Below the pieces are notes generated by a model. The model was not told where the DNA came from, made no database searches, and saw nothing but the letters and a program-made list of their open reading frames with translations. Positions 40,451-58,284 of a DNA stretch of 64,000 bases are shown here, piece by piece. The translations under genes and the position numbers were made by a program. Location of the stretch: positions 77,895,677 through 77,959,676 of the forward strand of contig CM068827.1 in assembly GCA_028554795.2 (NCBI GenBank). The letters are read 5' to 3'. Every line of letters starts with the position of its first letter. The first letter of the stretch is position 1. The DNA is from Sinohyriopsis cumingii (taxonomy: Eukaryota > Mollusca > Bivalvia > Unionida > Unionidae).

Positions 40451-40525
40451 CACTTTCCTCTAGGTCTGGTGAACTTCATTGACCCTCTGTTAATTATAAT
40501 GTGAGTAGTGAAGTGGGATACCCTA

Positions 40526-40727
40526 GCGACAATGGGAATTAGCATTACAGACCCCCCTTGGGACAATCTGGCGACAATGGAAAATTAACATGGAGAAAAA
40601 TCGTGGGACAATCTGGCGACAAGGGAAATTAACATGGAGAAAAAATCTTGGGAATGTTGAGCGACAAGGGAAATTAACATGGAGAAAAATCGTGGGACTG
40701 TTGAGCGACAAGGGAAATTGAACATGG
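40526..40727 (+). repeat. 45-bp tandem repeat near the left end of the provirus
   Basis: GCGACAA(T/G)GG(A)AAATTAACAT starts at 40526, 40571, 40616, 40661 and 40705, a 44-45-bp period, about 4.5 copies. An A/T homopolymer zone (40730-40775) follows and then the first viral signal. Subterminal tandem repeats are common in Polinton termini, so this may be the remains of the left terminal region, but no matching repeat is seen at the right side. Confidence 0.8.
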
Positions 40728-40800
40728 GATTTTTGTTTTTTTTTTTTAAAAAAAAAATAAAATTTTTTTTAAAAAAAGGGGTAGGCAATTGAAAGTCATT

Positions 40801-40837
40801 CTCTTTTCGAGAAATATGGCTGGTCCTGAAAAGGGCC
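40801..40837 (-). terminator. Histone-type 3' processing signal (minus strand)
   Basis: On the minus strand, GGCCCTTTTCAGGACC (40837-40822) matches the replication-dependent histone stem-loop with one stem mismatch. It is followed by CCATATTTCTCGAAAAGAGA, whose purine-rich part (complement of about 40801-40811) sits where a histone downstream element would. It begins about 25 nt after the stop of the small minus-strand ORF. Confidence 0.8.
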
Positions 40838-40861
40838 TTTGGGTTTATGTTAATATTAATA

Positions 40862-41095
40862 TTAACATAGATGGCATCTGTCATATCTTCTTCTTCTTCT
40901 TAAACTCCTTCTAACTGCAGGTCCATACACAAGTACCCTCTTGAGACATCCTTGTCTTTCTATGTAAACTCTTCTCATCCATAGACTAGTATCTGTCCTA
41001 TCAACAATAGTCCACTTGGACCGGACATACATGAGCATGTCCGTCCTAAACATCATGGAAGACACAAGGGTGGATGACTCAACTGTGGTCCACAT
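40862..41095 (-). CDS. Small Arg-rich protein at provirus left end, unknown function
   Basis: A 77-residue frame starting ATG at 41095, with a minus-strand TATA box (complement of ATTTATA, 41141-41147) 46 bp upstream, the same spacing used by other genes of this provirus. The protein has hydrophobic/Met-rich N-terminal residues and a basic C-terminus with RRSLRRRRRY (about residues 62-71). No family is recognised, and it does not resemble a histone despite the histone-type promoter and 3' end. Arg-rich small proteins in related viruses can be DNA-condensing core proteins, but that is only a guess. Confidence 0.5.
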   Translation of the reverse strand: MWTTVESSTLVSSMMFRTDMLMYVRSKWTIVDRTDTSLWMRRVYIERQGCLKRVLVYGPAVRRSLRRRRRYDRCHLC

Positions 41096-41123
41096 CTTGA
41101 AGCGACGAGAACAGGTGAATCAA

Positions 41124-41300
41124 TGCAGTGAACTGCGCTTATTTATAGGCAGAGGAAGGATTGAAACGGATTGAGTTCATTCACCAATCCGAACACGCGT
41201 TACAAAATTCAGTCAGCTCGCATCCAATCCGAAGAGAGCAGTCTGTGACGTCACGTAGTCTATATAGATTCGCTAGTGCTTGTGTACAGTCAATCTATGC
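41124..41300. promoter_or_regulatory. Bidirectional promoter, histone-pair-like
   Basis: The 219-bp gap between two divergent ORFs holds a minus-strand TATA (TATAAAT, complement of 41141-41147), CCAAT boxes at 41184-41188 and 41224-41228 (both as CCAATCCGAA), a full CRE palindrome TGACGTCA at 41246-41253 and a plus-strand TATATAG at 41261-41267. Each TATA is 46-54 bp from its ATG. The same element set in a short divergent spacer is characteristic of paired core-histone genes. Confidence 0.85.
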
Positions 41301-41314
41301 GACAGTGATTCAAC

Positions 41315-41893
41315 ATGACGGAAACTCAGAAAACGATCCATTGGGGTGCACCAGCAGGGGAGACTGACCAAGGGAACCCGGACTTACTTTCAGAAGAGGT
41401 ACATTGGGATTTTGTGGATTTTCTTACCTCGCAAGAATTTGTTCCGGAACCTTCGTTACCTTCTTCATTACCGCAAGTGGAGAATTTTAGACAGAGACAG
41501 AAAGAAGAATTGGAGAAATTTATACAACGACAAAAGGAAGCGGAACAAGCTTTTCTCCTACAGCAGCAGCAAGAAGAAGAAGAGGTAAGAAATAAACAAC
41601 AGCAACAACAGCAAGAAGAAGTAGCAGCAAAGAAACAAGAGGGTGAAAATCCAACGGTCACGCTACTGTTGGACATTTTAGCGGAGTTAAGAAGTCTGAA
41701 ACAAATGTATCAGACTTCTTTATTACGACCGAAGAGAATACGACCTTCCCGAGCTAAACACGTTAACCCTGTGACTAAGCCTACCGTACCACCCTTAGTG
41801 ATTTCAACCAAATCATCATCATCAACATTACGCAGTCCAGAAGTAGGCCTTGGCCGTGGCAAAGGCTTAAGACAGTTAAAGTTGATTGCTTAA
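41315..41893 (+). CDS. Gln/Glu-rich coiled-coil protein, unknown function
   Basis: 192 residues. An acidic N-terminus (about 1-60) leads into a long charged, Q/E/K-rich coiled-coil segment (about 65-115, with QQQQEEEEV and QQQQQQEEV), then a basic region around RPKRIRPSRAK (about 140-150) and a short Gly/Arg end with GLGRGKG. Start is the first ATG 48 bp after TATATAG. The mRNA end is a histone stem-loop 28 nt past the stop and no poly(A) signal is needed before it. No similarity to histones in the coding part beyond a trivial GRGKG. Possibly a scaffold or DNA-associated virion protein, which is inference only. Confidence 0.7.
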   Translation: MTETQKTIHWGAPAGETDQGNPDLLSEEVHWDFVDFLTSQEFVPEPSLPSSLPQVENFRQRQKEELEKFIQRQKEAEQAFLLQQQQEEEEVRNKQQQQQQEEVAAKKQEGENPTVTLLLDILAELRSLKQMYQTSLLRPKRIRPSRAKHVNPVTKPTVPPLVISTKSSSSTLRSPEVGLGRGKGLRQLKLIA

Positions 41894-41920
41894 ACTCACC
41901 CCTACACCATGAAGAAAAAA

Positions 41921-41957
41921 GGCCCTTTTCAGGGCCAGCCACATTTCTCGAAAAGAG
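41921..41957 (+). terminator. Histone-type 3' processing signal (stem-loop plus downstream element)
   Basis: GGCCCTTTTCAGGGCC (41921-41936) is a perfect 6-bp stem with a UUUC loop, matching the replication-dependent histone consensus. It is preceded by an A-run, followed by AGCCACA and, 13 nt later, by the purine-rich GAAAAGAGA (41950-41958), where the U7-binding histone downstream element normally lies. It ends the coiled-coil ORF, whose stop is 28 nt upstream. Confidence 0.9.
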
Positions 41958-42184
41958 ATAGCCTTTCAATTTGCCAATAACTCAAAAAAAACCCCACCCA
42001 TTTTACCCTTATAGTACGTCTCTGTGTATGAGTGCGTGAGTGTAGCTTCTTATTTTAAAATCAAAACTCAAAGACACTTACCTTATATCATTCATTTATT
42101 CTTTTATCCATTGTTACAATCCAATTCACAATTCACAACATAACACTTTAATTAAAAGTTCATTGACTTCTTCTGTCTCCTTGT

Positions 42185-42665
42185 TTAGTCTCTCTGTTTT
42201 TTGAATTTTTTCACCGTCACACTCTTTTCCTCTTCTTCTTCCTCCTCCTCCTCGCTTTCTTCCCTTCTTCTTTTTTTCTCCTGTTTCTTTTTCTTCACCT
42301 GTCTTCTTTCTTCCTCAGAAGAATCCCTCTCTTCCTCTGAAGAATCCCTCTCTTCTTCTGAAGAATTCCTCTTTTCTTCTGATTCCTCTCGTTTCTTTTT
42401 GGGCAATCTGGAGACCAATATCCTTTTTCTTTACAATAATAACAGGTATCTTGACTTTTGTCTTTTTTAGTCCCTGTTTTTTTTTTCTTTTTTGACGGTC
42501 TGGACACTCTGAAGACCAATGCCCTTTCTTCTGACAGATATAGCAAGTATCTTGACTTTTATCTCGAAAGGAAGGAGAGTAGTCCGTGGGCTGGTCTGAA
42601 GAGAATTTTCTAATGACTCCTCGCAAAGCTCTGACGAAACGTTCGATTTGGCTAGTCTCTTCCAT
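42185..42665 (-). pseudogene. CCHC zinc-knuckle protein with acidic Ser/Glu tail, frameshifted
   Basis: On the minus strand, opposite to most provirus genes. ATG chosen at 42665 because the TATATAAAA on that strand (complement of about 42719-42727) lies 54-62 bp upstream. The first frame carries a knuckle CYICQKKGHWSSEC (C-x2-C-x4-H-x4-C); after a T/A homopolymer (about 42476-42492) a second frame carries CYYCKEKGYWSPDC, in which the His is replaced by Tyr. After a further shift near 42400 a third frame encodes SSEEERD repeats and a poly-Glu/Lys tail. Knuckles of this type bind nucleic acid. The two shifts at homopolymers may be mutations or assembly errors. Role in the virus unknown. Confidence 0.7.
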
Positions 42666-42718
42666 CGTTGTGTTCGGCTTGAGAGTGAAATGAATAGTGA
42701 AAGGACAAGACACACACC

Positions 42719-42799: not shown

Positions 42800-45700
42800 A
42801 TGAAACGATCCTATTCATTCGAGAAGAAAGAAGAAGAAGAAAGTAAGAGGCAGAAACGTGATCTATCGCCTCGAACTAGGGCTGAAATCTTGGCACAAAT
42901 TCATGCCAGTGATTTTGAAGAGGACATGAGTGAACCAGAATTTGAAACCTCTAAACCAAGTTCACCACCCTTAGTCAACCCTGAAAAATACTATTCCATT
43001 CAAGAGACGGAAAAGCGCTCCTCTAGAAAATTTAGAACCACGGCTTACAAATACACGGTGAAGTTTAAAGATTTCAAGGCTGAAGTTCCGTTGGAGAAAG
43101 CAGAAGTGTTTATCACTGGGGTGTGGGATTCTTTGCTCACTGCACTCAAGCGACAATGTCAACCCAAAGAAGACGATCGCTTGAGACTTTCCATACAACA
43201 CGACGGTTTGAAATCCCCTGTTTGGATCGAGTTTAGCACCCCTGCAGAATTGACCGCTTCCAAAGTCATGGACAAGATTCAACACGTACAACAATCTAAT
43301 GACCAGTTTGACATCACCGATGGAAAAGCCACACTGGACATGACCCACGTCTCTCCTCCTCAAGGGACTGGACGCAAAAAGATGTTATTGGTGGACGAGC
43401 TTCGCAGCACCAAAACAAGTCTCGTCCGAATTCACAACAAGAACGACACGGTAGAATGGAAAAGAACCTGGAAAACTATTCAACGATCCGACCGAGCCAA
43501 ACAACGAAATGAAGCAGAACTCCTGTTACAACAAGCCGGACTGTCCAAAGACACACCCTGTGGCATTCCTGAGATGCAAAAATTGCAAGATGCCCTAGCT
43601 CCACGCTACACCTTGAAAGTGCACCCTCAAGAAATGCGCGGGCCTCTGTTGTTTCGAGGCCAGGAATTTAAGGACGGAAAATACATTCATGTCTATTATA
43701 ACGATGGCCATTTCGATACCATTACCAGTATCACTGGATTCCTAGGATACGGTTATTATTGTGAGAAATGTGATTATGGTTATAACAATCGAGAGCAACA
43801 CAAGCATTGTGGATCGAAATGCCCAGGATGTTTGGCCTCTCCACCCTGTCTGAGCGAAGAACCAGTGCCTTGTTCAACTTGTCTGCGCACGTTTGTCAGC
43901 CCTACCTGTTACCAACAACATTTGAAAACACAAGGTTCACAGCAGAAATGTGCTTGTCAACTCCTGAGATTGTGCCCTACCTGTGGACAAGGCATACTTA
44001 CCAATAATGCCAAGGCACACGTATGTCGAGGAAAGAAAAAATGTCACATTTGTCACCACATCGTGGACTTGGAACACCAATGCTACGTGCAAAAATACCA
44101 ACCCCCACCAGAGAAAGAGGACGATCAAAAGAAGAAAGGGAATTTCATCTTTTTCGATTTCGAATGTATGCAAGAGACTGGCATTCACATCCCTAATTTC
44201 TGCGTGGCTCATCGAGCGTGCGAGAAGTGCATTCAAGAACCTATCTTCAGTCATTGCCCTCACTGCAGCAAGATTCCCGGAGGGCGTGAAAAAATTTTTC
44301 GGGGACCGAACACGCTAGCCGATTTCGCTCAATGGGTCTTAGACCCCGTCGACAAGACGTGGAGCCAAGAGGACATCGAACGTTACGGAGATTGTCATCG
44401 TCATGCCACGGTGATGGCTCACAACTTTTCAGGATACGATGGACAGTTTCTTCTCAGATACTATACGGAACATGGCACCGAGCGTCCTAAAGTAACTTTG
44501 AACGGAGCCAAAATCATTTTCATGCAAGTGGGACAATTGCAGTTTAAAGATTCGATGAGTTACTTGACCATGCCTTTGAGTCGAATGCCTAAAACATTTG
44601 GAATGATAGAAATGGCTAAAGGGTACTTTCCACACTTTTTCAATACGGAAGCCAATCAACATGCCGTTCTACCCCATTTGCCTGAGGTTCACTATTACGA
44701 CCCCGACAACATGCGTACCGAACAACGAGAAGCTTTCTACGCTTGGTACCAGGCTCACGCCTCGGACCCTTTCGACTTTCAGGAAGAAATGCTAAAGTAT
44801 TGTCGTTCCGACGTGGACATTTTACGACGGTCCTGTGGAAAATTTCGAGAACTGTTCATGGAACACGGAGGGGTCGATCCTTTGAAAGAAGCTTGCACCA
44901 TTGCCAAAGCGTGTTCCTTAGTGTATCGACAACGATTCATGCCTGAAAACACCGTGGCTGTCATCAGCCCTCAAACGACCCACTTTGTCAAACGTCAATA
45001 CTCGGTCAAAGCCCTACGTTGGTTACATTACTTGTGCGACAAGGAAGACAAGTGGATTCAGCATGCCCGCAACGGAGGGGGCGAAAAGACCATCGGAACG
45101 TATTCGGTCGATGGCTGGGACTTAGAAAACCCCAAGATCGTGTACGAGTTTAACGGTTGCTTATTTCACGGATGTCCCGTCTGTTACCCTGACCGTGGTA
45201 CTAAAAATCAGTTTTTGCAACGAACCATGGAAGACTTGTGCCAGGACACTTGTCAGCGGCGCCTAAAGTTAGAACAGCAAGGATACCAAGTGGTGGAAAT
45301 GTGGGAACACGAGTACGATCACCGTATGAAAACCGATCCCGAGTTTAAACGTGTCGTGGAAAGTTACTAGTTCATGGACCCGCTGAACCCGAGGGATAGT
45401 TTGTACGGAGGAAGGACCAATGCCACCTGTTTGCTGTACCAAGCCGACGAAGAGAAAGGAGAAGAAATCAAATACCTGGACGTGTGTTCGCTGTATCCCT
45501 ACGTGTGCAAATATTGTCGCTTTCCTGTAGGGCATCCGCAATTGCTGACGGAACACATCGACCTGAAAAACATTCGACAATACGAAGACTTGATCAAGTG
45601 CAAAGTTTTGCGTCCCACGAACCTATACCATCCCGTCTTACCTCACCATTGTCAAAGCAAACTGATGTTTCCCTTGTGCCGTACTTGTGCCGAAACGTGC

Positions 45701-46795
45701 AACCAAGACCAACCTTGTCAGCACACCCAGGAAGAACGGGCTTTGACGGGAACCTGGGTCAGCGTAGAATTGTTCAAAGCTTTGGACATGGGATACCAAC
45801 TGTTAGAAGTGTACGAAATTTGTCACTTTCCCAAGACACAACAATACCACAAGGGTGACCCCAGTCAGAAAGGCATTTTCGCTGACTACGTGGATGCCTT
45901 TTTGAAACTGAAGCAAGAAGCCAGCGGCTATCCTTCATGGTGTCACACTCCCGAAGACCAAATACAATTCAAAGAGAAATACTATGAACAAGAAGGCATC
46001 ACTTTAGACCACATCGAGAAAAACGAAGGCAGGCGGTCGTTTGCCAAAGTGATGTTAAATTGCTTGTGGGGTAAAATGGCACAACGACCGTGTTTACCCA
46101 AGATGGAATATTTGACAGAGCCTTCCCGCTACTTCCAGATGATTCACGACAAAACCAAATGCATGAAACACGTGGACGTCGTTCGCGAGGATCTGATCTT
46201 GGTCAATTACGAAGAAGATCTGGACTTTGTACAAGACGACCCTTTTGGAAATGTCATCATTGCGGCTTACGTGACAGCTCATGCTCGCTTAAAATTGTAC
46301 GAAGCTTTAGAACTGTTAGGGGAACGCGTCCTGTACTTTGACACGGACAGTTGCATTTACATCCATCACCCGATTCAACATCACCCTGACATCGAAGGAG
46401 ACCGTTTAGGAGCCTGGACAGACGAACATCCCGACGACAAGATACTAAGTTTCGTCAGTGGCGGTCCCAAAAATTACGGCTACGAACACCGGGACAAACA
46501 AGGAGAAGTGCACACGACGTGCAAAGTGAAAGGACTGACTCTGAATTATCGTACCAGTCAAGTGGTGAACTTTGGGGTAGTGAAAGAAGCCTTGCAATCG
46601 GGAGAGGATGCAAACTTTAAAGTGACCACTTACCAACCCAACAAGATTGTACGTTTACCCACTCACCACATCGTCAGTCGGGCCTTGGAAAAAGTCTATC
46701 AAATCGTGTACCAGAAGCGAGTGAGACTTCTTAATCACTTTACGTTGCCGTACGGTCACGTCGGTATTGGTCTGTATATAAAAAAGGAACCCTAG
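42800..46795 (+). pseudogene. polB: Polinton/adintovirus protein-primed DNA polymerase B (one in-frame stop)
   Basis: The frame from 42800 is open for 856 codons, stops at TAG 45368-45370, and continues in the same frame for 473 codons to 46795. The N-terminal part has a Cys/His-rich zinc cluster (about residues 320-430) and the 3'-5' exonuclease motifs: FFDFEC (about 451), HNFSGYDGQF (about 540) and YCRSDVDIL (about 666). After the stop come the polymerase motifs: DVCSLYP (motif A), KVMLNCLWGK (motif B) and YFDTDS (motif C). All catalytic Asp residues seen are present. Size (about 1,330 codons) fits family-B protein-primed polymerases of Polintons. The single stop, between the exonuclease and polymerase halves, makes this copy a pseudogene unless it is readthrough or a sequencing error. 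Confidence 0.95.
46775..46785 (+). promoter_or_regulatory. TATA box inside the 3' end of polB
   Basis: TATATAAAAAA lies 10 bp before the polymerase stop and about 60 bp before the next ATG (46841). Confidence 0.75.
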
Positions 46796-47173: not shown

Positions 47174-47479
47174 CCCAACCCTCATCGAAACGAACCTGTG
47201 AAAGACGAATATTCGTTTCCTGTGCGTTTGTCGGAATACTGCGACTTTGAAAATCGTCTTCAATCGTTCAAAGGAAAATGGCCTATGTATCTGGGAGGAC
47301 CGACCCCCGAAGAATTAGCCAGAGCCGGATTTTTCTACTTGGGCGAAGGAGATAAAGTCAAGTGCTTCAGTTGCGGTGTGTCACTTCACCACTGGGAACC
47401 GCAAGATTCGGCCTACGTAGAACATGCTCGATGGTCACCGAATTGTCATTACTTACCCTTAGTGGGACCGAGACATTGA
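47137..47479 (+). pseudogene. BIR-domain (IAP-like) protein, probable frameshift near its start
   Basis: The frame 47174-47479 encodes a complete single BIR: conserved Arg in ENRLQSF, GW-equivalent KWP, a Gly-Phe-FYLGEGD segment and the zinc pattern C-x2-C-x16-H-x6-C (CFSC ... H ... C) in the last 35 residues. No in-frame ATG precedes it. A good candidate start is ATG 47137, in another frame, about 44 bp after a weak TTTTAAAGG element, which would need one indel near 47200 to join. BIR proteins bind caspases or act as E3 scaffolds (when a RING is present); no RING is seen here. In viruses single-BIR proteins usually inhibit apoptosis; that role is inferred here. Confidence 0.85.
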
Positions 47480-47505: not shown

Positions 47506-47961
47506 ATGAATACTTTACAAGAGAACATTCGTGCTTTGTCTGTGGAGTTGAGAGAACGCATTTACCGAGAGCTGGTCAAAATACAAGTGAAACGTAAAGA
47601 ACAATTGCATCCGTTACGTCACCGGTGTTTGAACCACTGGTACCTGAAGGCTACACAAGGATTGATTCAATTGAAAGTGTTCCATCGGACAGACATTGAT
47701 GAACGATCCTCTAGTTTTAAAAAGGATTGGTTTGGTATGGACGATTCTACCTACATCATTGTAAACGTACTGCATCGAATTCCAGAGGAAGAGTTAACGA
47801 ATTACCAACATCTTCAACAAAATGTCGACTTGGTGAAAGAGGAAACTTCTGAACGAATTGTAATGTGTAGATTAGTGACTAAACGATTTAAATTCGACAC
47901 TGAAGTAAAACCATGCTTGTGCAAACAGTACATTTCTTGTGTCAGACCAAAGAGGATTTAG
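47506..47961 (+). CDS. F-box-like protein, paralogue 1 of 3
   Basis: 151 residues. The N-terminus ENIRALSVELRERIYREL has the spacing of an F-box-type helix (L..EL...I...L), followed by basic IQVKRKEQ and a central HWYLKATQGLI segment. The rest has no recognised domain. It is shared in detail with the next two genes, and nothing similar is known to me in the core Polinton set, so it is an accessory, probably host-interaction, gene. If the F-box reading is right, it would bind Skp1 and recruit targets to a ubiquitin ligase (inference). Confidence 0.6.
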   Translation: MNTLQENIRALSVELRERIYRELVKIQVKRKEQLHPLRHRCLNHWYLKATQGLIQLKVFHRTDIDERSSSFKKDWFGMDDSTYIIVNVLHRIPEEELTNYQHLQQNVDLVKEETSERIVMCRLVTKRFKFDTEVKPCLCKQYISCVRPKRI

Positions 47962-47973
47962 TATGACCTATTC

Positions 47974-48246
47974 ATGGATACTTTGTTAGAGAACATTCGT
48001 GCTTTGCCTGTGGAGTTGAGAGAACGCATTTACCGAGAACTGATCAAAATACAAGTGAAACGCAAACTCAAAGTGATTCGTCCGTTTTTAAATTATGCTA
48101 TGTTCCAAAGTACAAGAAGACTGATTATGAGTGGATATTACATTAGGCACAAAGGTAAACGAGGCTATTGGCCACCACCCAACGATTCCAAAAACAGTGT
48201 ATATACTTATGGATACTTTACAAGAGAACATTTTGGGCTTGCCTGA
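47974..48246 (+). pseudogene. F-box-like paralogue 2 of 3, truncated
   Basis: 90 residues. The first 31 residues are nearly identical to paralogue 1 (ENIRALPVELRERIYREL). It then diverges and runs over the start of paralogue 3, ending early. It appears to be a tandem duplicate that lost its C-terminal two thirds by deletion. Confidence 0.6.
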
Positions 48247-49411: not shown

Positions 49412-49458
49412 CTCTTTTCTTGTTTGTTTCTCGTGTCACAAGTGACATTTCTCACACA

Positions 49459-50202
49459 ATGGCTACCTCTGCTGTCTCTGCTCCCTCTTCTTCTACTGTC
49501 AAAGTCATCGACGAACACTTAGATCGTGCCAGTTGGGACGCTTTGTATCTTCGCCATCCCTTTAACATGCTCATTGCTGGACCTAGCGGTTCAGGCAAAA
49601 CCGAATTCGTCAAACGTTTGATCGAACATAAACATCATTTGATCGATCGGCCACCTCAACGGATCGTGTGGTGTTACAAAGAGTGGCAATCGGCGTACAG
49701 CCTCTTGCGAGAAAGTCAAGGCGATTCCATCGTGTTTGTGGAAGGCATTCCTAAAGAAGACGACAGCATCGTCTCTGACTCCCGTCAAACCCATTTGGTC
49801 ATTTTCGACGACATGTTAGGAGAAGACGAAGAAGAAATTAAACTGTGGTTCACGCGCAAAGGGCATCACCGTAATGCCAGTGTCGTTTACATCACCCAAA
49901 ATTTGTTTCAACAAAGTAAAGCCCATCGCACCATCAGTCTCAATGCGCATTACGTAGTCTTGTTTAAAAGCCCTCGAGATAAATCGCAAGTGCAAGTCTT
50001 AGCCAAACAGTTAGGAACGCCTTGGCTGACTCAGGCGTACGACGATGCCACTCAAACGCCACACGCCTATTTACTCGTCGATTTGAAACCTACGACTCCC
50101 GAGGATTTGCGATTTCGTACCCACTTGTTTCACCACTGGTGCCAAGACGGAGGGCCTGTCCTGTACACGTCTCCGTCCTCGACTTCATTTCACTCCCCAT
50201 AA
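49459..50202 (+). CDS. Packaging ATPase (FtsK/HerA, A32-like)
   Basis: 247 residues. Walker A GPSGSGKT is at residues 41-48 and Walker B LVIFDDM at about 113-119; a sensor-like ITQNLF follows. This is the genome-packaging motor conserved across Polintons, virophages and other double-jelly-roll dsDNA viruses, and pumps DNA into the capsid using ATP. The frame is open and of normal length for the family. The start is set by the TATA position. Confidence 0.95.
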   Translation: MATSAVSAPSSSTVKVIDEHLDRASWDALYLRHPFNMLIAGPSGSGKTEFVKRLIEHKHHLIDRPPQRIVWCYKEWQSAYSLLRESQGDSIVFVEGIPKEDDSIVSDSRQTHLVIFDDMLGEDEEEIKLWFTRKGHHRNASVVYITQNLFQQSKAHRTISLNAHYVVLFKSPRDKSQVQVLAKQLGTPWLTQAYDDATQTPHAYLLVDLKPTTPEDLRFRTHLFHHWCQDGGPVLYTSPSSTSFHSP

Positions 50203-50209
50203 AAAAATC

Positions 50210-50217
50210 TATAAAAA
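50210..50217 (+). promoter_or_regulatory. TATA box of the SPKK-rich protein gene
   Basis: TATAAAAA immediately after the ATPase stop, 46 bp before the ATG at 50256. Confidence 0.75.
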
Positions 50218-50255
50218 CCTCAGACCCTTTTTCGTCTGTCTCACACAGTGTAAAC

Positions 50256-51200
50256 ATGACGTCCCTTCAGTCGCATCTTCCCGTCAAATTGATTCGTGCC
50301 TTGTATGGCATCAGTCGAGAAAAAAATCCACAAACACGAGCTCGTGTCTTAGAAGCTAGTCTCAAAGAAGTCTTACGATGGTTCACGGTGACGGCACTTC
50401 AAATACTCCAAGGAATCATTCAGATTCCTCATCAAACCAAACGCTTTTTCGATCGAAACAAAGTCGCTTTGGTCCAACTGGCCGATCCCCGCATCGACAC
50501 TCAAACCAAAAAACAAATCATTTTGAAACCTGGAGGGAGCGGTACTCTAGGAGGGGTCACCATTCGCTCTCTCTTAAGATGGGATCCTAATGCCCCCAAA
50601 GTTATCCCAAAGGAAAAAGTCCAACGAAGCCCCAAGAAGAAAAAGACCAAGTCCCCAAGGAGAACTTCTCCAGTGGCGGGACCCTCCTCTTACCAGTCAC
50701 CACCCCGGAAAAAGAAAAGAAGCCCCCAGAAAAAGAAACAGAGAAAAAGTCCCCAGAAAAAGAAAAGTCCACAGAAGAAAACTAGTCGCAAGAGAGGCAC
50801 TTCGGCCAGGACGCAACCTTACACTCGCAAACCACGACCTGACACGTCGGTGACTGTGTCTCCGGCATCCTCACGTTTATCCACTTCTCCGTTGATGACA
50901 CCAGGAACTGAAGAGTACTTGGAGACGTTGATCACACCAAGAACTTCTCCGTTGATGACCCCAAAAAGAACTTCCCCAATGGCAGGACCCTCCAATTTAG
51001 TGGCAGTGGCTGCTTCTCACAAAGTACCTTCTCTCAAAATCAAAGTCCAAGAAAGATCGGGCATGTTACAAAGTTTACTGGATTTGTCCAAGCAAGAACT
51101 GGCTCGATTTAGTCCGTTGCGTACCCCTGCACGACGTGTCATGACTGTCATCAAACTGATACGACGTAAATACAATCATTGGCGACGCGTTCCAGTATAA
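50256..51200 (+). CDS. Conserved small-protein paralogue with long basic SPKK-rich tail
   Basis: 314 residues from ATG 50256 (46 bp after TATAAAAA; an upstream in-frame extension lies inside the ATPase gene and is rejected). Residues 1-105 resemble the next gene (helical N-terminus, then KKQIILKPGGSGTLGG against KKKMLVQRGGILP). From about 115 it is Ser/Pro/Lys-rich with SPKKKK, SPRR, SPPRKKK and SPQKKK repeats, the type that binds the DNA minor groove in H1 and sperm histones, and then SP/TP-rich (CDK-like sites). I infer a DNA-condensing virion core protein made by fusing a basic tail to a duplicated structural gene. Confidence 0.75.
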   Translation: MTSLQSHLPVKLIRALYGISREKNPQTRARVLEASLKEVLRWFTVTALQILQGIIQIPHQTKRFFDRNKVALVQLADPRIDTQTKKQIILKPGGSGTLGGVTIRSLLRWDPNAPKVIPKEKVQRSPKKKKTKSPRRTSPVAGPSSYQSPPRKKKRSPQKKKQRKSPQKKKSPQKKTSRKRGTSARTQPYTRKPRPDTSVTVSPASSRLSTSPLMTPGTEEYLETLITPRTSPLMTPKRTSPMAGPSNLVAVAASHKVPSLKIKVQERSGMLQSLLDLSKQELARFSPLRTPARRVMTVIKLIRRKYNHWRRVPV

Positions 51201-51206
51201 AAAAGG
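51196..51206 (+). promoter_or_regulatory. TATA box overlapping the previous stop codon
   Basis: TATAAAAAAGG contains the TAA of the preceding gene and is about 62 bp before the ATG at 51262. Confidence 0.7.
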
Positions 51207-51261
51207 TGTGTGACCAAGTCATGGGTATCAGTGTTTTTTTGGTGCTCCTGAAGACTCAAAG

Positions 51262-51648
51262 ATGTCACCCTCCAGAAAACCCCAAGGAAAGAAAAGGAAA
51301 GGACTACCACCACGTTTAGTCAAACATGGGGACATGTTATCTGTCCTGTCCAAAGCTTCTTCACCTCTACGAAAAAAACTCATTCAATCAGCCTCCAAAG
51401 AGGTCATCGATACCGTGTGCGAATGTTGTTTGAACGTTTTGAAAGGCACGATCCCTTTGTCCAAACACCAGAAACAATGCTTAAGCAAACATCGTCACGT
51501 TCTTCGCCAAATGGTTCGAAAGAAAATTCCCATTCGTCAAAAGAAGAAGATGTTAGTCCAACGTGGAGGCATTTTGCCTCTTTTGTTAGGCCCCATACTG
51601 AAAGGAGTCTTGGGAACCATGTTGGGAGGTCTGGTGGGAGCAAGATAA
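51262..51648 (+). CDS. Conserved small basic Polinton protein
   Basis: 128 residues. Helical segment with LIQSASKEVIDTVCECCLNV, a basic middle (KHQKQCLSKHRHVLRQMV) and a Gly/Leu-rich hydrophobic end (GGILPLLLGPILKGVLG). From general knowledge a protein of this size and order (helices, LKG.IPLS..Q, basic stretch, GG-LLL end) is common in Polintons and adintoviruses and is thought to be virion-associated, but its function is not established. It is the shorter paralogue of the preceding gene. Confidence 0.75.
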   Translation: MSPSRKPQGKKRKGLPPRLVKHGDMLSVLSKASSPLRKKLIQSASKEVIDTVCECCLNVLKGTIPLSKHQKQCLSKHRHVLRQMVRKKIPIRQKKKMLVQRGGILPLLLGPILKGVLGTMLGGLVGAR

Positions 51649-51655
51649 AAAGGCC
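51645..51655 (+). promoter_or_regulatory. TATA-like element
   Basis: GATAAAAAGG overlaps the previous stop and is about 50 bp before ATG 51698. Confidence 0.55.
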
Positions 51656-51697
51656 CTCGGAAGTCCCAAGATCTCAGAATTGACCCCTGACAACCCC

Positions 51698-52177
51698 ATG
51701 GAAGGACGAAAACTAGCTTTAGTGCCTTACAAACGATGGATGGAATACCATCGGTGGCAAGAACAACGCACCCCGCATTTACCTCCCAATCCCAATTTGA
51801 GCGAGATGTCCCAGTTACAAAACGAATTACAGTCTTTGATGGATCGCCAAGATTTGTCCGAAACAGAAAAATCGCAAAAGTACGGTCAACTCTTGCAACG
51901 ACTGCAACTCTTTCACCAGAAAGCTTTAGACGAAACAGCTCTACCCACTTTGAAAGATTTTAAGACCTTGATGAAAAGTCCAGCTCCATCATTATTACCA
52001 CCACCACCACCACCACTACTACTACCATCCCCAGAGGTCACCAGAGATGCTACCTCACGAAGACCTGAGGAAGAAGAGATGCGAGAAGTGTTTCAAACAC
52101 CGTCAGCAGCTCCTATTTCAAGTAAGATTGCAGCATCCTTGTTGACACCGTCCCCACACCCCAACGAGAAGAAATGA
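51698..52177 (+). CDS. Conserved Polinton protein with Pro-rich region
   Basis: 159 residues from ATG 51698 (good context CCCCATGG). N-terminus LVPYKRWMEY, then a helical domain around NELQSLMDRQDLSETEKSQKY and LLQRLQLF (about residues 38-75), a Pro-run and a tail with TP/SP. The helical block has the feel of a conserved adintovirus protein that sits between the ATPase and integrase in several genomes; function unknown. It ends in an ATGA overlap with the next ORF. Confidence 0.65.
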   Translation: MEGRKLALVPYKRWMEYHRWQEQRTPHLPPNPNLSEMSQLQNELQSLMDRQDLSETEKSQKYGQLLQRLQLFHQKALDETALPTLKDFKTLMKSPAPSLLPPPPPPLLLPSPEVTRDATSRRPEEEEMREVFQTPSAAPISSKIAASLLTPSPHPNEKK

Positions 52178-52410
52178 AAGCTTGGGTTAAAAAGATGATG
52201 TCCACTCCTCCTTCGCCAGAAGTGAAAAAGAAAGAAGGGAAACCAGAAGCGAAAAAAGAAAAGAAAACCAAAGCCATTCCATTGTCACCTCAACCACCAC
52301 CACTACCTTCGACTTCCACTCCCGTAGCCCATCGGACACGTAAATCCGTTTCCAAACCACCCTTCCGTCCCACCCAAAGTAGCATCACCGAAGAGTGGGT
52401 GACTTATTAA
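52174..52410 (+). CDS. Lys/Pro-rich small protein, overlapping start
   Basis: 78 residues; the start codon overlaps the previous stop (ATGA). Rich in Lys, Pro and Ser with short basic runs (KKKEGKPEAKKEKKTK) and a Tyr C-terminus. It may be translated by reinitiation or be the displaced C-terminal part of the upstream gene after a one-base shift; composition of the two is similar. Function unknown. Confidence 0.5.
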   Translation: MKAWVKKMMSTPPSPEVKKKEGKPEAKKEKKTKAIPLSPQPPPLPSTSTPVAHRTRKSVSKPPFRPTQSSITEEWVTY

Positions 52411-52419
52411 CACACAAAA

Positions 52420-53532
52420 ATGGAAAAAGTCTTAGCCAGCATTTACTACGATCCCTCGCATCCTGCAGGTTACGCAGGAGTTCAAAAATTGTATCGTGCT
52501 GCCAAAACGCGACTGAAAAGTCTCCGTTTACCTCAAGTGCAACGATGGTTACAAGAACAAGCTACCTACACTTTGCACAAACCAATTCGACGCAAGTTTG
52601 CCAGAAGTCGCACCCGAGTGGAAGGCATCGATCATCAATGGCAAGCCGATTTAGCCGATGTCTCTCATTTGGCCAGCTACAATCGTGGTTACAAATATTT
52701 GTTTTGTGTCATCGACGTCTTTTCCAAATTTGCCTGGGTCGTGCCCTTGACTTCCAAATCCAGCAGCGAGTTAGTGCGAGCCCTACAACGGGTGTTGAAA
52801 CAAAGCGGTCGTCACCCTCTTCGATGGCAAACGGACAAAGGCACCGAATTTCTGAACCAAGCTTTCCAAAAAGAATTAAAGAAACGTGACATTCATTTTT
52901 TTACCACCGAGAATCCCGAAACCAAAGCCAGCATCGTGGAACGTTTTCAACGCACTTTGAAAGAACGCATGTGGAAATATTTTACGCATCACCACACTCT
53001 GAAGTACATCGACATCTTACCTCACCTGGTGCAAGCGTACAACCAATCTTACCATCGAAGCATCGGACGTGCCCCGCAAGACGTGACTCCCGACAACGAA
53101 GTGTTGGTGTTTGAGCGTCTGTTTGGTACGTCCCCGACGAGGGCTGTCCCCAAGAAAAGTGGAGAGTTGGTCGTAGGAGATTGGGTGCGCATTGGCAAAA
53201 CCAAACGCACTTTCGACAAAGGTTACTTACCTAACTGGACGACCGAATTGCTTCGCGTCACTGGACGAGTGCATGGCCGTCATCCTACTGTCTATAAATT
53301 GGAAGACATGAACGGAGAAGTGCTCAAAGGAATGTTTTATTTGCCCGAGTTACAACGTGTCACCAAAAAAGAAGACGACGTGTACGACATCGAAAGCATT
53401 CTCGAACGCAGAACCCGTAAAGTGGGCAAACGACGTGTCATAGAAGTCAAAGTACGTTGGAAAGGATATCCACCCAGTTTTGATTCTTGGGTCGACGCTT
53501 CGCAAGTCATCGACTATAAAAAGAAGAAGTGA
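52420..53532 (+). CDS. Polinton integrase (DDE) with C-terminal chromodomain
   Basis: 370 residues. The rve core has D77 (HQWQADLADV), D139 (WQTDKGTEF) and E174 (ASIVERFQRTLK), a D,D(~35)E spacing. A C-terminal chromodomain follows at about 321-366 (VYDIESIL ... VRWKGYPPSFDSW). This is the hallmark retrovirus-like integrase of Mavericks/adintoviruses, and chromodomains direct insertion to modified histone tails in related elements. No HHCC knuckle is seen at the N-terminus. The gene is intact, suggesting either recent insertion or selection. Confidence 0.97.
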   Translation: MEKVLASIYYDPSHPAGYAGVQKLYRAAKTRLKSLRLPQVQRWLQEQATYTLHKPIRRKFARSRTRVEGIDHQWQADLADVSHLASYNRGYKYLFCVIDVFSKFAWVVPLTSKSSSELVRALQRVLKQSGRHPLRWQTDKGTEFLNQAFQKELKKRDIHFFTTENPETKASIVERFQRTLKERMWKYFTHHHTLKYIDILPHLVQAYNQSYHRSIGRAPQDVTPDNEVLVFERLFGTSPTRAVPKKSGELVVGDWVRIGKTKRTFDKGYLPNWTTELLRVTGRVHGRHPTVYKLEDMNGEVLKGMFYLPELQRVTKKEDDVYDIESILERRTRKVGKRRVIEVKVRWKGYPPSFDSWVDASQVIDYKKKK

Positions 53533-53537
53533 CCATC

Positions 53538-53957
53538 ATGCCCTTTCACACAGACGCAGCTACTACGTCGACCACTCCTCCTTCACCTAGTTCTTCTGTG
53601 CAAGAGTTACAAAAACAACCTTTGTGGGTGTGGTGTGGAGAACGTGTGCCTAAAACGCAAATCGTCTTTTTCTGCCAAATCTTCGTGGTGTATTGTGTCA
53701 TCGGGGCAGCCATTGCCAATTTCAGTTTGCAACAAGGAGACAAACAATTGTGGACCATTTTATTGAGTAGTTGCATCGGTTACCTGCTTCCCAATCCCTC
53801 CCTGAAATTCTCCTCGAACGGGAACCACAGGAACCTTGTGTCCAGTGCCAATGCCAGTCACCAGTCCAACCACAACCAGAACCCCATTTTTGATGGAGAC
53901 ACGCCTCTGACGTCCAGTAATAACCCCTCGGACAGCCACAGAACTCTGGAATTATGA
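53538..53957 (+). CDS. Small two-helix membrane protein conserved in Polintons
   Basis: 139 residues from ATG 53538 (an upstream GTG overlaps the integrase stop). Two hydrophobic segments, about residues 41-62 (IVFFCQIFVVYCVIGAAIAN) and 71-88 (WTILLSSCIGYLLPNPS), then a polar Ser/Asn-rich tail. The phrase LSS-GYLLPNP is typical of a small protein I recall from Polintons. Probably inserts into host membrane or the virion, role unknown. Ends in an ATGA overlap with the next gene. Confidence 0.75.
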   Translation: MPFHTDAATTSTTPPSPSSSVQELQKQPLWVWCGERVPKTQIVFFCQIFVVYCVIGAAIANFSLQQGDKQLWTILLSSCIGYLLPNPSLKFSSNGNHRNLVSSANASHQSNHNQNPIFDGDTPLTSSNNPSDSHRTLEL

Positions 53958-54885
53958 GTCACCAAAACCAATTTTACTCAACCTTACCCAGTGACAGTTC
54001 CATGGAGGTGTTTCCCCACAACACGTTGTGCTGTTACACGGCCAAATTACCTCAGACCATCCCCTTAGATCACGAAGCCCATTGGGAAGTGGCTTTAGTG
54101 GAAATCATTCACCCGACCCAAGTCATCAATGTCCTTCCCAATCAAAATGTTTTTGATGTGGAAGTTCATGACGAACAATTGCAACAGTACTTGGATACCT
54201 ATGGCAAATATGACAAGAAAACCCCTGGCACAAAAAATCAAAAGTACACCACCTATCACTTGTTCATTCCCCCAGGGTATTATTTTAGTGGTCAACATTT
54301 GGTGAGCACCATTACCTCCAGGTTTAATGTCGTGTTTCTGAAAGTTTTGGAAAGTGTCAAAAAAGTGTCACCATGGAATACCACAAAACAGCTCGTCGCT
54401 TCTTGATGAAATTTGACGGGAGTAAAATCCTGTCCATTTTATTTTGTCCTGAATTGTTTGACATGTTGGGCGGAGACATGGACATGAGAATGGCAATGAC
54501 GAAGAAAAACGAATCACCCATCGTTTACGACAACGAGTCTTTTAGCAAGTTATTTCGTGCCCCGGTAGAACTGAACCAAGGACTGAATTTGATGTTTGTG
54601 TACTCCGATGTGGTGGAGTATAACGTGGTGGGACACACCTCTGTACCGTTACTGCGTGTCATTCCTTTCAAAGTGGATTCTGCCACGAACGCTGACGAGG
54701 AATGTGGAAACACTTACCACGTCCACCGCGAATTTGTCCATCCTCACTATTTACCGGTCAGCAAATCGTATTTGGACACGGTCAACATTGCTATAAAAGG
54801 AGATTTGGGACAAAATATTCCATTCACCAAAGGAAAAGTCACGGTGAAACTCCATTTTCGAAAACGGTTCTCTCACGACTCGTAA
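53954..54885 (+). pseudogene. Penton-like minor capsid protein, frameshifted
   Basis: Frame one (53954-54406) has the N-terminal half (FYSTLPSDSSMEVFPHN, then a TKLPQ-like and WEVALVEI segment); frame two (54373-54885) the C-terminal half (FVYSDVVEYNVVG, PLLRV, and a VKLHFRK end). The two overlap by about 30 nt with a one-base shift. Order, motifs and total length (about 310 codons) fit the single-jelly-roll minor capsid (penton) of Polintons, which forms fivefold vertices. The ATG overlaps the previous stop (ATGA). Confidence 0.85.
54792..54800 (+). promoter_or_regulatory. TATA box within minor capsid gene
   Basis: TATAAAAGG inside the 3' part of the minor capsid frame, about 90 bp before the pVI-like ORF. 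Confidence 0.55.
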
Positions 54886-54892
54886 GTAAGTC

Positions 54893-55459
54893 ATGTATCC
54901 AGTGTACCGAGGGGTTGCTCGACAGCGAGGACACGGTTTAGGAGATATGTTAAAATCGGCCTTTCGTTTGGTGGCCCCGGTGTTGAAACCGATGGTGACA
55001 CGCGGATTGCACGCCTTGAAAGATGCGGCACTGACGCAAGGCAAAGAATTTCTCCAAAATGTCATCATCGACAAACAAAACCCTAAAGAAGCCTTCATGA
55101 GGGCTGGCAAAAATGTCTTGCTGCAAACAGGTAAAGACATTTTGGGCCGACGAGACACACCTATAAATGCCCTGCACGCTACCGAGTCAGGCATTCAGCA
55201 AGGACAAGGCAGAAAGAGACGACGAAGAAAACACCCTTTCACCAGACTTCAAGCGAGAAAGGCCAAGAAAAGAAGAACCGTTCGAGACTTTTCGATTATT
55301 GAGAAAGAGAAAAAAATGATGCACCGAGAGTCGCGCTTGTTCCAAGACGGAACTGGATCTGTTTGCTATGCCCCCCACCATGATGACGATGCAAGAATCC
55401 CAGTGGGTGGAATTTCATCCCGTCTCCTCTTTGACGGAATCAGCTCCCATCGAGTTTGA
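54893..55459 (+). CDS. pVI/core-like amphipathic and basic protein
   Basis: Open frame of 188 codons; the authentic part is probably the first 140. It begins GVARQRGHGLGDMLKSAFRL, an amphipathic Gly-rich helix like those of adenovirus-type membrane-lytic/core proteins, and continues to a basic RRRRKHPFTRLQARKAKKRR stretch (about residues 108-127). From 55316 the frame coincides with the start of the major capsid gene, so its end is probably an artefact of an indel. A TATAAAAGG at 54792-54800 is about 90 bp upstream. Confidence 0.65.
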   Translation: MYPVYRGVARQRGHGLGDMLKSAFRLVAPVLKPMVTRGLHALKDAALTQGKEFLQNVIIDKQNPKEAFMRAGKNVLLQTGKDILGRRDTPINALHATESGIQQGQGRKRRRRKHPFTRLQARKAKKRRTVRDFSIIEKEKKMMHRESRLFQDGTGSVCYAPHHDDDARIPVGGISSRLLFDGISSHRV

Positions 55460-56627
55460 AATCAAAGGACAACCCGAAGATTACATCGATCTGAATAGCA
55501 GTTACCTGTATTTGAAAGTGAAAGTGATCAAAACGGACAACACCAATCCAGGAGGCGATGCTAGAGTAGCTCCTGTCAACAATTTCATGCATTCCTTATT
55601 TAGCGAAGTGGACTTGTACTTGAATAACAAACTGGTCAGCAGCAGCATGGATACTTACCCATATCGTGCCTACTTGGAAAATCTCTTGACGTACGGAAAA
55701 GAAGCCAAGAATACTCATCTGGATGCTTGCGTGGTATGGAAACCTGACACGGCAGGTGTAGGCACGTTTAGCGACACAGTCCTGACAGAAGATGACAATC
55801 CTCACAATGTGGGGTTTAACGACCGTCGTAAGAAAATCTGCAAGGGCGAAGTTTAGAACTGATGGATCGTTTGCATTTGGACATGTGGTTACAAGAAAAG
55901 TATTTGCTGAACGGGGTGGATATCCGTCTGAGACTGAATCGTAGCAGTGCCACTTTCCATTTGATGGCCCATAACAACTATCATTCAAGAAGCCCGACTT
56001 TACGTGCGTCGTGTGGAAGTGTTACCTAAAGTGGGAAACTACGTCAGTCAGACGTTGAGCAGAACGACTGCCAAGTATCCGATAGGACGCGTAGAAGTGA
56101 AAACGTTCACCATTCCTGCTGGACAGCGATCCATGATCGAAGATCATCTGTTCCAAGGACAGTTACCCAAACGTTTGATTGTTGGTATCGTCAGAAATTC
56201 AGCCTTCAACGGAACCCACGATCAAAATCCTTTTGAGTTTCAACATTACAATGTGTCCAAGATCGAAGTCAGTCGCGACGGCAAGACCTTGTGTACCCGA
56301 CCCTTTGAGCCCAACTTTGGTGTCGCAAAGAATTATTTGAGATCGTACTTGTCCCTGTACGAAGCCACGGGACAGTTAGGAACCAACACCAGTCACGGTA
56401 TTACGTACGAGGATTATGCAGGAGGCTATGCTTTGTGGGGTTTTGATTTCACTCCAGACCAAGGCAGCGACGAGGGACATTTCCATCCTATAAAATCCGG
56501 GCAGATTCGTGTGGAACTTCAGTTTGCAAATCCACCTCCACATCACACAGTGAACGTCATCCTGTATGCCGAATTCGATAATACGATAGAAATCAATAGT
56601 TTGAGAGAAGTCATTCTAGATTACTAG
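55316..56627 (+). pseudogene. Major capsid protein (double jelly-roll), frameshifted
   Basis: Clear MCP blocks are open in 55368-55856 (HPVSSLTESAPIEFEIKG, PVNNFMHSLFSEVDLYLN, DTYPYRAYLENLLTYG) and in 56004-56627 (RRVEVLPKV, GIVRNSAFNG, then Y...YEATGQ). The stretch between (55857-56003) holds the expected RLHLDMWLQEKYLLNG segment in a different frame, so there are at least two shifts (about 55835-55860 and 55970-55985). A third near 55330 separates a probable start at 55316 from the main frame. The double jelly-roll MCP forms pseudo-hexameric capsomers. Breaks mean this copy cannot encode a normal capsid unless they are assembly errors. Confidence 0.92.
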
Positions 56628-56632
56628 AAGCC

Positions 56633-57115
56633 ATGGAAGACTGTTATCCCTCTTTACCTAGTGGAGAAACTTTGGACATGAAATGTGAGGAGTCTGTGGA
56701 AGAAGAAGTGTTCATGATGAAGTCGAGATGGCCAGAACAAGAAGCCCATTTAGTCTCCTGTTTTGCCAAACACTTGGTGGAAAAAATGACGGAATTAATC
56801 AAGAAAAATTGCTATGGATGTCAAAACGATCATCCCAGTCAAATTCAACACGATAAATGCCTGATGTTAAGTCAAGAAGAAAAATTGGACGAGTAACTGG
56901 ACGAGGCTTGGAGTCTCATCTCGGACAAAGACGTGTTGCACCAGTGGTATAAAAACTTGCGTGAACATTCTTGTCCACCATTAACCACTCAAGAGATCCA
57001 TCGTATCGAAGCTCTCCTGAATCAGAGTGAGGAAACAGAACGAATAACCGTTTATTCGTCAGACATTTTCAAGCAAAAAGTCAGGATCGAATTGACGACA
57101 TATTATTACCTGTGA
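56633..57115 (+). pseudogene. Conserved Polinton protein with Cys/His motif (one in-frame stop)
   Basis: The frame from ATG 56633 stops at TAA 56894-56896 and continues in the same frame to 57115. The central CYGCQNDHPSQIQHDKC motif, with HPSQ, is one I recall in Polinton/adintovirus genomes; its function is not known. The DNA around the stop repeats TGGACGAG (before and after), which suggests a short duplication created the stop. Length without the break would be about 160 codons. Confidence 0.7.
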
Positions 57116-57140
57116 AGAAGAAAAAAAGCACACACAAAAC

Positions 57141-57701
57141 ATGGATACCTGGGAACTTTATTACCTTTTGAACCACAGTTCGTATACGGCTTCTTGGAAT
57201 CCTGTCGTCTGTGCTAAAGATGAACTCCCTCATCGCAAACCTCAAGACCATCAAGCTTACGTAATCAACACGGACGACAGTCATCTCCCAGGAACCCACT
57301 GGGTAGCCGTCTACTTTCCTCAAGAAGGATGTGTGGAATATTTCGATTCGTACGGATTGCCCCCTTTGGAAGACGATATCATTGACTTTATGAGAAGAAA
57401 TGCTCAGACTACCCGATTCAATAACGTGAAATTACAAGGCACAGATTCCTTGGTGTGTGGACAGTACTGTGTGTATTTTCTGCATCATCGCAGCCTGGGC
57501 TATTCCTTAGAACATTTAGTGACTCATTTTGATCCTCGTTCTTCTGCTAGAAACGATGTGAAAGTAGATCGATGGTTTTGTGACCATTATGCTTATCTTT
57601 TGTCTCAAGCTAGGAAACGTAGTGTCCATCAATGGCCTAATGATTTCGAACAGTGGAAATCACAATTTCATTCACAACGTTGTCAGCCCTGTTTAAAGTA
57701 G
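57141..57701 (+). CDS. Adenain-like maturation protease
   Basis: 186 residues. Catalytic elements are H53 (GTHWVAVYF), D69 (EYFDSYG), Q99 and C106 (LQGTDSLVCGQYC), in the order and spacing of the adenovirus protease/Ulp1 fold: the oxyanion Gln is seven residues before the nucleophile and is followed by the Cys-Gly pair. It is thought to cleave virion precursor proteins. The frame is complete. Confidence 0.95.
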   Translation: MDTWELYYLLNHSSYTASWNPVVCAKDELPHRKPQDHQAYVINTDDSHLPGTHWVAVYFPQEGCVEYFDSYGLPPLEDDIIDFMRRNAQTTRFNNVKLQGTDSLVCGQYCVYFLHHRSLGYSLEHLVTHFDPRSSARNDVKVDRWFCDHYAYLLSQARKRSVHQWPNDFEQWKSQFHSQRCQPCLK

Positions 57702-57912: not shown

Positions 57913-58284
57913 ATGACACTCACTGAACGTTGCGGCTCGAAAACCGTGTGGGGATGTTTTCCTTCACGTACGCGCTTTGACTTTAAGAACCGGGGTTGTT
58001 TCCAGTCTAACCATCCATTGTCGACTTATCCTCCTAAGAAGATGTGCTCCAAACTAGCTAAGCTCAACGAAGCCTACGTGAATTTGCATAGGGTCAGACA
58101 CAGTCTGATACCGAAGCCAGAAGAAATAGAGAATGTGAGAATGTTAAAAGTCACTAAGGACTTTCTAAGGAACTCTCACAAAGGAACGATAGGAACACGC
58201 AGTAAGATAGTAATATATCAGACAAAGGAAATCCAGCCAAGCAGCCCGCCACGCAGCCATTTTGGATCATACCACCTCGTATAA
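57913..58284 (+). CDS. Uncharacterised ORF near the provirus right edge
   Basis: 123 codons with a mixed composition, some Cys and Pro, and a basic tail (TKDFLRNSHKGTIGTRSK). No motif recognised. It may be a terminal viral gene, host DNA, or part of the 5' end of the retrotransposon that follows. Confidence 0.3.
   Translation: MTLTERCGSKTVWGCFPSRTRFDFKNRGCFQSNHPLSTYPPKKMCSKLAKLNEAYVNLHRVRHSLIPKPEEIENVRMLKVTKDFLRNSHKGTIGTRSKIVIYQTKEIQPSSPPRSHFGSYHLV

Follow-up and report, generated by a model that had tools for sequence, protein, structure and literature searches.

Terminal genes of an endogenous adintovirus of Sinohyriopsis cumingii probably carry histone-type mRNA 3' ends

Bounds and gene content of the provirus

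The window, the whole 64,000-nucleotide stretch of contig CM068827.1 of the bivalve Sinohyriopsis cumingii analysed here, covers only part of a provirus. The terminal inverted repeat (TIR) at window 40504-40846 has its partner outside the window at C4:77965711-77966052, in inverted orientation and with 96.2% identity over 344 columns, and the 6-bp sequence AATGTG, read from the sequence, directly flanks both provirus ends. Because of this TIR pair and the AATGTG at both ends, the provirus is taken to extend from window 40504 to C4:77966052, a length of 29,873 bp including inserts. Its left boundary and the genes inward of the terminal pair are as follows (the names pX, penton and hexon were assigned in this analysis):

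40498..40503, no strand: left copy of the target-site duplication AATGTG; the right copy is L061 6454-6459
40504..40846, plus strand: left TIR, containing 44-45-bp tandem repeats, placed by the TIR alignment and the AATGTG flanks
42800..46795, plus strand: PolB, presumably of the protein-primed type, in two pieces (42800-45370 and 45374-46795) with a single in-frame stop between them and PF03175 in each
49420..57701, plus strand: core block, with the components on the next lines
49420-50202, plus strand: A32-like ATPase
51262-51648, plus strand: pX-like ORF
52420-53532, plus strand: integrase with rve and chromo domains (PF00665, PF00385)
53954-56627, plus strand: capsid relatives, from tblastn with the capsid-like ORF of L001 (E 8e-47), without a Pfam match
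57141-57701, plus strand: protease-like ORF (PF00770 at 16.3 bits, under the cut-off of 21.3)
58042..58167, plus strand: first 42 residues of gene c, interrupted by an insert; the remainder, with its stem-loop, is in L061

Several other ORFs lie within these bounds. A BIR (inhibitor-of-apoptosis) ORF is present at window 47198-47479 (PF00653, E 1.5e-24), and the C11 copy has one too. It is followed at 47506-48667 by repeated related ORFs, which start like LxENIxxLPxELRERIYxELVKIQVKRK and are perhaps an F-box-like family; the one ORF tested had no Pfam match. The insert in gene c (58167-60861), perhaps a retroelement of the non-LTR type, contains a perfect 99-bp tandem duplication (59373-59574) and a 690-aa ORF (58789-60861) that shows CCHC-like motifs. 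Pieces of a zinc-knuckle ORF (PF00098) occupy 42185-42713 on the minus strand, convergent with the right ORF of the terminal pair; their end has no histone stem-loop and is followed by ATTAAA at 162 nt and AATAAA at 214 nt.

A divergent gene pair at the left end

Between the left TIR and PolB, two divergent genes share one promoter region:

40800..40811, minus strand: left downstream purine element CTCGAAAAGAGA, read directly
40822..40837, minus strand: left stem-loop GGCCCTTTTCAGGACC, with one C-A mismatch, at the inner TIR edge and 24 nt past the stop of the 77-aa ORF
40862..41095, minus strand: left ORF, 77 aa, Arg-rich, without a Pfam match; two relatives at 77-78%
41096..41314, no strand: divergent promoter, with CCAAT at 41184 and 41224, CRE TGACGTCA at 41246-41253 and TATA-like motifs at 41261 (plus) and 41141 (minus)
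41315..41893, plus strand: right ORF, 192 aa; 20 relatives; two helices, mostly disordered, with a basic stretch near residue 140
41921..41936, plus strand: right stem-loop GGCCCTTTTCAGGGCC, perfect, 27 nt past the stop of the 192-aa ORF
41947..41958, plus strand: right purine element CTCGAAAAGAGA, like a histone downstream element, read directly

Both ORFs are uninterrupted. The model of the right protein has a mean pLDDT of 65.7 and shows two helices amid regions of low confidence, and that of the left protein (mean pLDDT 57.0) is too weak for use. In profile searches against solved structures, the right ORF gave two weak matches (E 0.0012 and 0.54) and the left ORF none. No protein of the left, right, c, a and b genes of the provirus scored above the Pfam cut-off, and no histone was found among the Pfam or PDB sequence matches of the encoded proteins.

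The right stem-loop is matched by the Rfam family RF00032 (Histone3) at 41916-41961 on the plus strand with 34.9 bits, above the gathering score of 34 (E 2.2e-6, computed over 64 kb and 4227 families). The left stem-loop is matched at 40797-40842 on the minus strand with 24.2 bits (E 0.0098), under the gathering score, and is a poor folder (-4.5 kcal/mol, z -0.34). These are the only Histone3 matches at E up to 10 between 36 and 64 kb, a scan in which the 3' end of PolB and the core block showed no histone stem-loop. The spacer from stem-loop to CTCGAAAAGAGA is 10 nt at both gene ends, and the left and right 3' ends can be aligned over 58 columns with five mismatches and one gap. No AATAAA occurs within 250 nt of either ORF; an ATTAAA follows the stop of the right ORF at 258 nt.

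The right ORF has 20 relatives among 486 candidates. The homologues P0012 and P0022 read on into the 3' region, and their residues fit the stem-loop and downstream element in 35/38 and 32/38 letters, respectively, a fit equalled by 0/1000 decoys for each; taken by itself, the P0022 downstream element does not outdo decoys (356/1000 as good). Both seem to be copies whose stop codon was lost. P0020 joins the start of the right ORF to residues 172-194 of PolB (E 5e-9). According to the accessible text of PMC11071296, an OTU-like domain is found at the PolB N-terminus in adintoviruses. P0011 and P0021 may share one contig, as the entries of both give a length of 1455 bp and identical sources for it.

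Of 30 copies of the locus, among them that of the window, 28/30 have one CRE or more, 29/30 have CCAAT and 30/30 have TATA. The random means per 300 nt are 0.63 for CCAAT, 0.43 for TATA and 0.004 for the full CRE, so that only the CRE is unusual.

This architecture agrees with the initial annotation, which had described two divergent non-histone ORFs of an endogenous adintovirus with a shared CCAAT/CRE/TATA promoter and a histone-type stem-loop plus purine element at each end, perfect on the right and with one stem mismatch on the left. The viral context is given by PolB, integrase, ATPase, TIRs and target duplication around the pair. All three promoter motifs were located, CCAAT and TATA being unremarkable by chance when taken alone; the right end scores above and the left end below the RF00032 gathering score; and the protein matches without a histone, together with a right model of only two helices, argue against a histone in either ORF.

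Conservation and copy number

Among the best 150 genome copies of the right ORF, the window copy included, identity to the query is 93-100%, and 141/150 have no internal stop. The locus set consists of the 30 best right-ORF copies by protein similarity, one of which is the window's own. In the 29 other copies, the N-terminal part of PolB adjoins the right ORF in 29/29 and the left ORF is present in 27/29. The stem-loops, on whose presence in other copies the initial annotation had made its reading depend, recur in canonical form at 25/30 right ends and 25/28 left ends. L024 and L047 were left out of the left count, the stretch searched having no stem-loop, and L024 has one nearer the promoter. 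The left mismatch of the window is atypical: 25/28 left stem-loops are perfect among the copies compared, and the window copy is among the other three.

Among the stretches 3' of the stops, the stem-loop varies least, with a diversity of 0.029 on the right and 0.018 on the left. The corresponding right and left values are 0.081 and 0.048 from stop to stem-loop, 0.063 and 0.090 in the spacer, 0.057 and 0.023 in the downstream element (the left over 28 copies), 0.105 and 0.074 in the next 20 nt, and 0.127 and 0.352 farther downstream. The coding end of the right ORF (last ten codons) is as low as its stem-loop (0.028), and that of the left ORF is 0.128. Pairwise dN/dS is 0.171 for the right ORF (30 copies) and 0.256 for the left (28 copies); as judged from such ratios, both window ORFs are under purifying selection. 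Variants found in one or two left copies comprise 143 non-synonymous and 77 synonymous changes, as expected for decay after insertion.

A similarity rule biased to intact forms gathered 83 stem-loops (L019, L022 and L023 being omitted as duplicates), of which 70 have six Watson-Crick pairs and 73 have six pairs if G-U is allowed. Pair 1 is G-C in 68, A-T in 11 and broken in four; pair 2 is A-T once. The loop is TTTC in 82 and TGTC in one.

A perfect canonical stem-loop is expected 0.007 times per 18.8 kb on both strands under a Markov-1 model, and the 2.9-Gb genome contains 26,046 exact matches to the viral string GGCCCTTTTCAGGGCCANCCA, against 0 for the reversed control. A chance origin of the stem-loops is ruled out by the RF00032 score, this expectation and the genome count against the control. 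Among the 100 sites listed, 28 divergent neighbour pairs lie 1071-1111 bp apart, the mean under random placement being 0.075, and 0 convergent pairs lie at 1.0-1.2 kb. A third, outward site is found 14-24 kb off in 20 of these 28 pairs, as in the layout of the left, right and b genes. With up to three GGCCCTTTTCAGGGCCANCCA sites per element, the genome would, as a rough estimate, hold several thousand elements. We also considered whether the stem-loops could be the inverted ends of a separate element of 1.2 kb; this was ruled out because the TIRs and target duplication bound a much longer element.

Two of the copies have a more complex structure. At a distance of about 0.9 kb, L051 has another left end, which is inverted and carries a perfect stem-loop too, and in L028 part of the right ORF is present a second time, which suggests nested or head-to-head copies.

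Other stem-loop genes of the provirus

Five genes of the window provirus, left, right, c, a and b, each have a stem-loop, and 4/5 of these are perfect. Those of c, a and b lie outside the window at L061 2169, 3168 and 6121. The outer pair is G-C in right and b and A-U in c and a. At the inner TIR edges, the stem-loops of left and b point outward, and those of right, c and a are outside the TIRs; for left and b, repeat conversion between the TIRs could help to keep the stem-loops alike. The C82 and C11 copies have three stem-loops of the same kinds 3' of the protease, and a six-pair scan found none in the core block of the stretches fetched; in the C169 copy, the stem-loops of the c and a types are defective. 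In the copies examined, the stem-loops are restricted to terminal genes.

The initial annotation had suggested that a DNA virus captured a histone gene-pair chassis. The histone-type 3' ends on non-histone virus genes stand, and the capture of a single pair does not, since c, a and b have such ends too. No full CRE was found in the upstream 300 nt of six individual copies of these genes. Because c, a and b share the 3' ends and these six upstream regions have no full CRE, the histone 3' end goes with the terminal genes and not with a promoter-plus-terminator chassis.

Comparison with host histone genes

A genome search with PF00125 (best 150 of 662 candidates scored) identified tandem histone units about 8.3 kb apart. 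In 20 loci fetched (L063-L082), host gene ends with GGCCCTTTTTAGGGCC were found 20 times for H3 and 19 times for H4, genes that we take to be H3 and H4 from their ends, at 28 nt and 27 nt past the stop, respectively. The host H3/H4 stem-loops are followed after 10 nt by CTAGAAAAGAG or CTAGAAAAGAT, the H3 form being CTAGAAAAGAG. Viral and host H3/H4 ends are alike in stem, 10-nt spacer and GAAAAGA core, and the CTAGAAAAGA core is common to host H3/H4 and viral genes a and c. Where an ORF ends close upstream, most viral genes have 18-36 nt between stop and stem-loop, and host H3/H4 have 27-28 nt.

The loop is TTTC in the viral and TTTT in the host H3/H4 stem-loops (UUUC and UUUU in RNA). Usual histone stem-loops have TTTC and similar loops, which the host TTTT does not resemble. 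Because the viral loop differs from TTTT, recent capture from host H3/H4 genes is unlikely. Host ends score 35.9 and 37.7 bits with RF00032 in the three loci scanned. Of the RF00032 matches listed for the genome, 69/75 score 42.6-45.6 bits, and ORFs or flanking sequence identify the eight fetched from these 75 as viral. Neither U7 nor SLBP of the host was matched in searches that are uninformative, as control searches were equally silent.

Distant relatives

The PolB scan of the genome contig collection gave 10 loci and the right-ORF scan no match. Only one of these 10 distant PolB contigs, L001, has an RF00032 match; the 9/10 without one are short loci. L001 has a length of 8.9 kb and was assigned to the bin of a bacterial MAG; besides a PolB with 41% identity, it encodes an integrase and ORFs like capsid and TBP. 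Its RF00032 match, the sole one in that MAG, is above the gathering score and lies 28 nt past an 89-aa C2H2 zinc-finger ORF with three CREs upstream. The accessible text of PMC11071296 reports zinc-finger genes in some adintoviruses. The TATA-binding-protein-like ORF (7189-7641, minus strand; PF00352, E 8.2e-23) adjoins the integrase, and a tRNA-like repeat was seen by eye between it and the zinc-finger ORF. Given this repeat, the zinc-finger ORF may be host DNA.

AATAAA follows the stop at 114 nt in L001, 123 nt in L018, 102 nt in L020 and 18 nt in L021 (one reported end each), and besides L001 four other ends have AATAAA within 250 nt. Because AATAAA follows the L001 end and these four others, poly(A) ends may also be formed.

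In the viral contig collection, scans with the ATPase, right ORF, integrase and PolB gave no relatives. One stem-loop pattern gave 0 matches there and another four, none of whose loci had RF00032 at E up to 1; these four are taken as chance matches. PolB gave three weak matches against phage records, and one PolB relative, P0083, is named Rhodactis coral adintovirus.

A model for the terminal genes and its alternatives

The element is in all likelihood an endogenous adintovirus/Polinton with very many host copies and histone-type ends on its terminal genes. The most plausible explanation, which we consider probable, is that its terminal non-core genes carry real 3' ends of the replication-dependent histone kind. 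At the level of sequence, the elements, their placement and conservation, their match to host histone signals and their restriction to terminal genes in the examined copies are direct readings. Accessible parts of PMC5706932 describe how, in metazoan histone genes, SLBP on the stem-loop and U7 snRNP recruit cleavage factors, and how histone mRNAs peak in S phase and then decay. By analogy, RNA polymerase II would transcribe the intronless terminal genes, host SLBP would bind the viral stem-loop, U7 snRNP would pair with the purine element, and the histone cleavage complex would cut between the two. The resulting viral mRNA would end in the stem-loop without poly(A) and would accumulate chiefly in S phase, with translation and decay as for histone mRNA, and the core genes would use ordinary ends. 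Because they face outward at the inner TIR edges, the outermost stem-loops would also halt transcripts before the TIR and host DNA. We infer from this likeness the processing by SLBP and U7, the absence of poly(A) and the S-phase timing; a regulatory or host-interaction role of the terminal proteins is suggested by gene place and size.

The same elements could act in RNA other than by cleavage, the mRNA being polyadenylated downstream and the stem-loop serving only SLBP binding, stability or translation. The AATAAA further down at the L001, L018, L020 and L021 ends would fit this idea, to which we give a small probability: neither window ORF has such a signal within 250 nt, and the downstream element, which has a known role in cleavage, is kept as well. 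The hairpins might also be DNA-level features that act in end recognition, as a replication origin or in packaging, or a spread repeat resembling the histone stem-loop. This is very unlikely. Two of the five stem-loops are indeed at inner TIR edges and the copies are numerous, but right, c and a are outside the TIRs, each stem-loop stands on the sense strand shortly past the end of an unrelated ORF with a downstream element like that of host H3/H4, and neither hairpin shape nor TIRs require the TTTC loop seen in 82/83.

That a decayed host histone cluster was joined to the provirus by chance, which the initial annotation had named as the case that would overturn its reading, is hardly conceivable. 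A divergent layout, CRE/CCAAT/TATA motifs and histone 3' ends do occur in one block, as such a cluster would have them. However, the block is enclosed by TIRs and target duplication, PolB is alongside in 29/29 other copies, the window ORFs have no histone match, and the host histone genes form tandem units of their own, about 8.3 kb in size, and have a different loop. The TIRs, target duplication and PolB association contradict such a chance fusion.

Relation to known systems and implications

To our knowledge, histone-type 3' ends are nearly private to replication-dependent histone genes. The viral ends share with the histone mRNA 3' end of RF00032 (the SLBP/U7 system) a 6-bp stem, a 4-nt loop, a short distance from the stop and a purine element about 10 nt on. 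They differ from it in that non-histone viral genes carry them, that the loop is TTTC and not the TTTT of host H3/H4, and that their processing by this route is putative. With adintoviruses and Polintons (Mavericks) the element shares PolB, an rve integrase with chromodomain, an A32-like ATPase, capsid relatives, TIRs and a 6-bp target duplication; the difference is that its terminal genes have histone-type 3' ends. Virus-encoded histones, such as bracovirus H4 and giant-virus histones, are likewise a viral takeover of a histone-related part, but there the protein is a histone, whereas here the RNA signal alone is histone-like. The accessible parts of a review (PMC9145170) make no mention of stem-loop, SLBP, polyadenyl or UTR, and the accessible open literature searched contained no report of histone-type 3' ends on viral non-histone genes; an earlier notice is possible.

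A wider proposal, which we put forward only tentatively, is that the viral genes fall into two classes, terminal ones with histone ends, which are tied to S phase, and core ones with ordinary ends, in a genome with tens of thousands of viral stem-loops. Because each element can make several SLBP-binding transcripts, the elements may compete for SLBP and lower the histone supply during viral DNA synthesis. As viral copies and host histone genes share one genome, the question is directly testable.

These data suggest that the virus took over from the cell a mode of mRNA 3'-end formation that is linked to replication. If true, such viral transcripts would escape poly(A)-selected RNA-seq, and the terminal genes would represent a new way in which viral expression, without the use of poly(A) tails, is coupled to DNA replication of the host.
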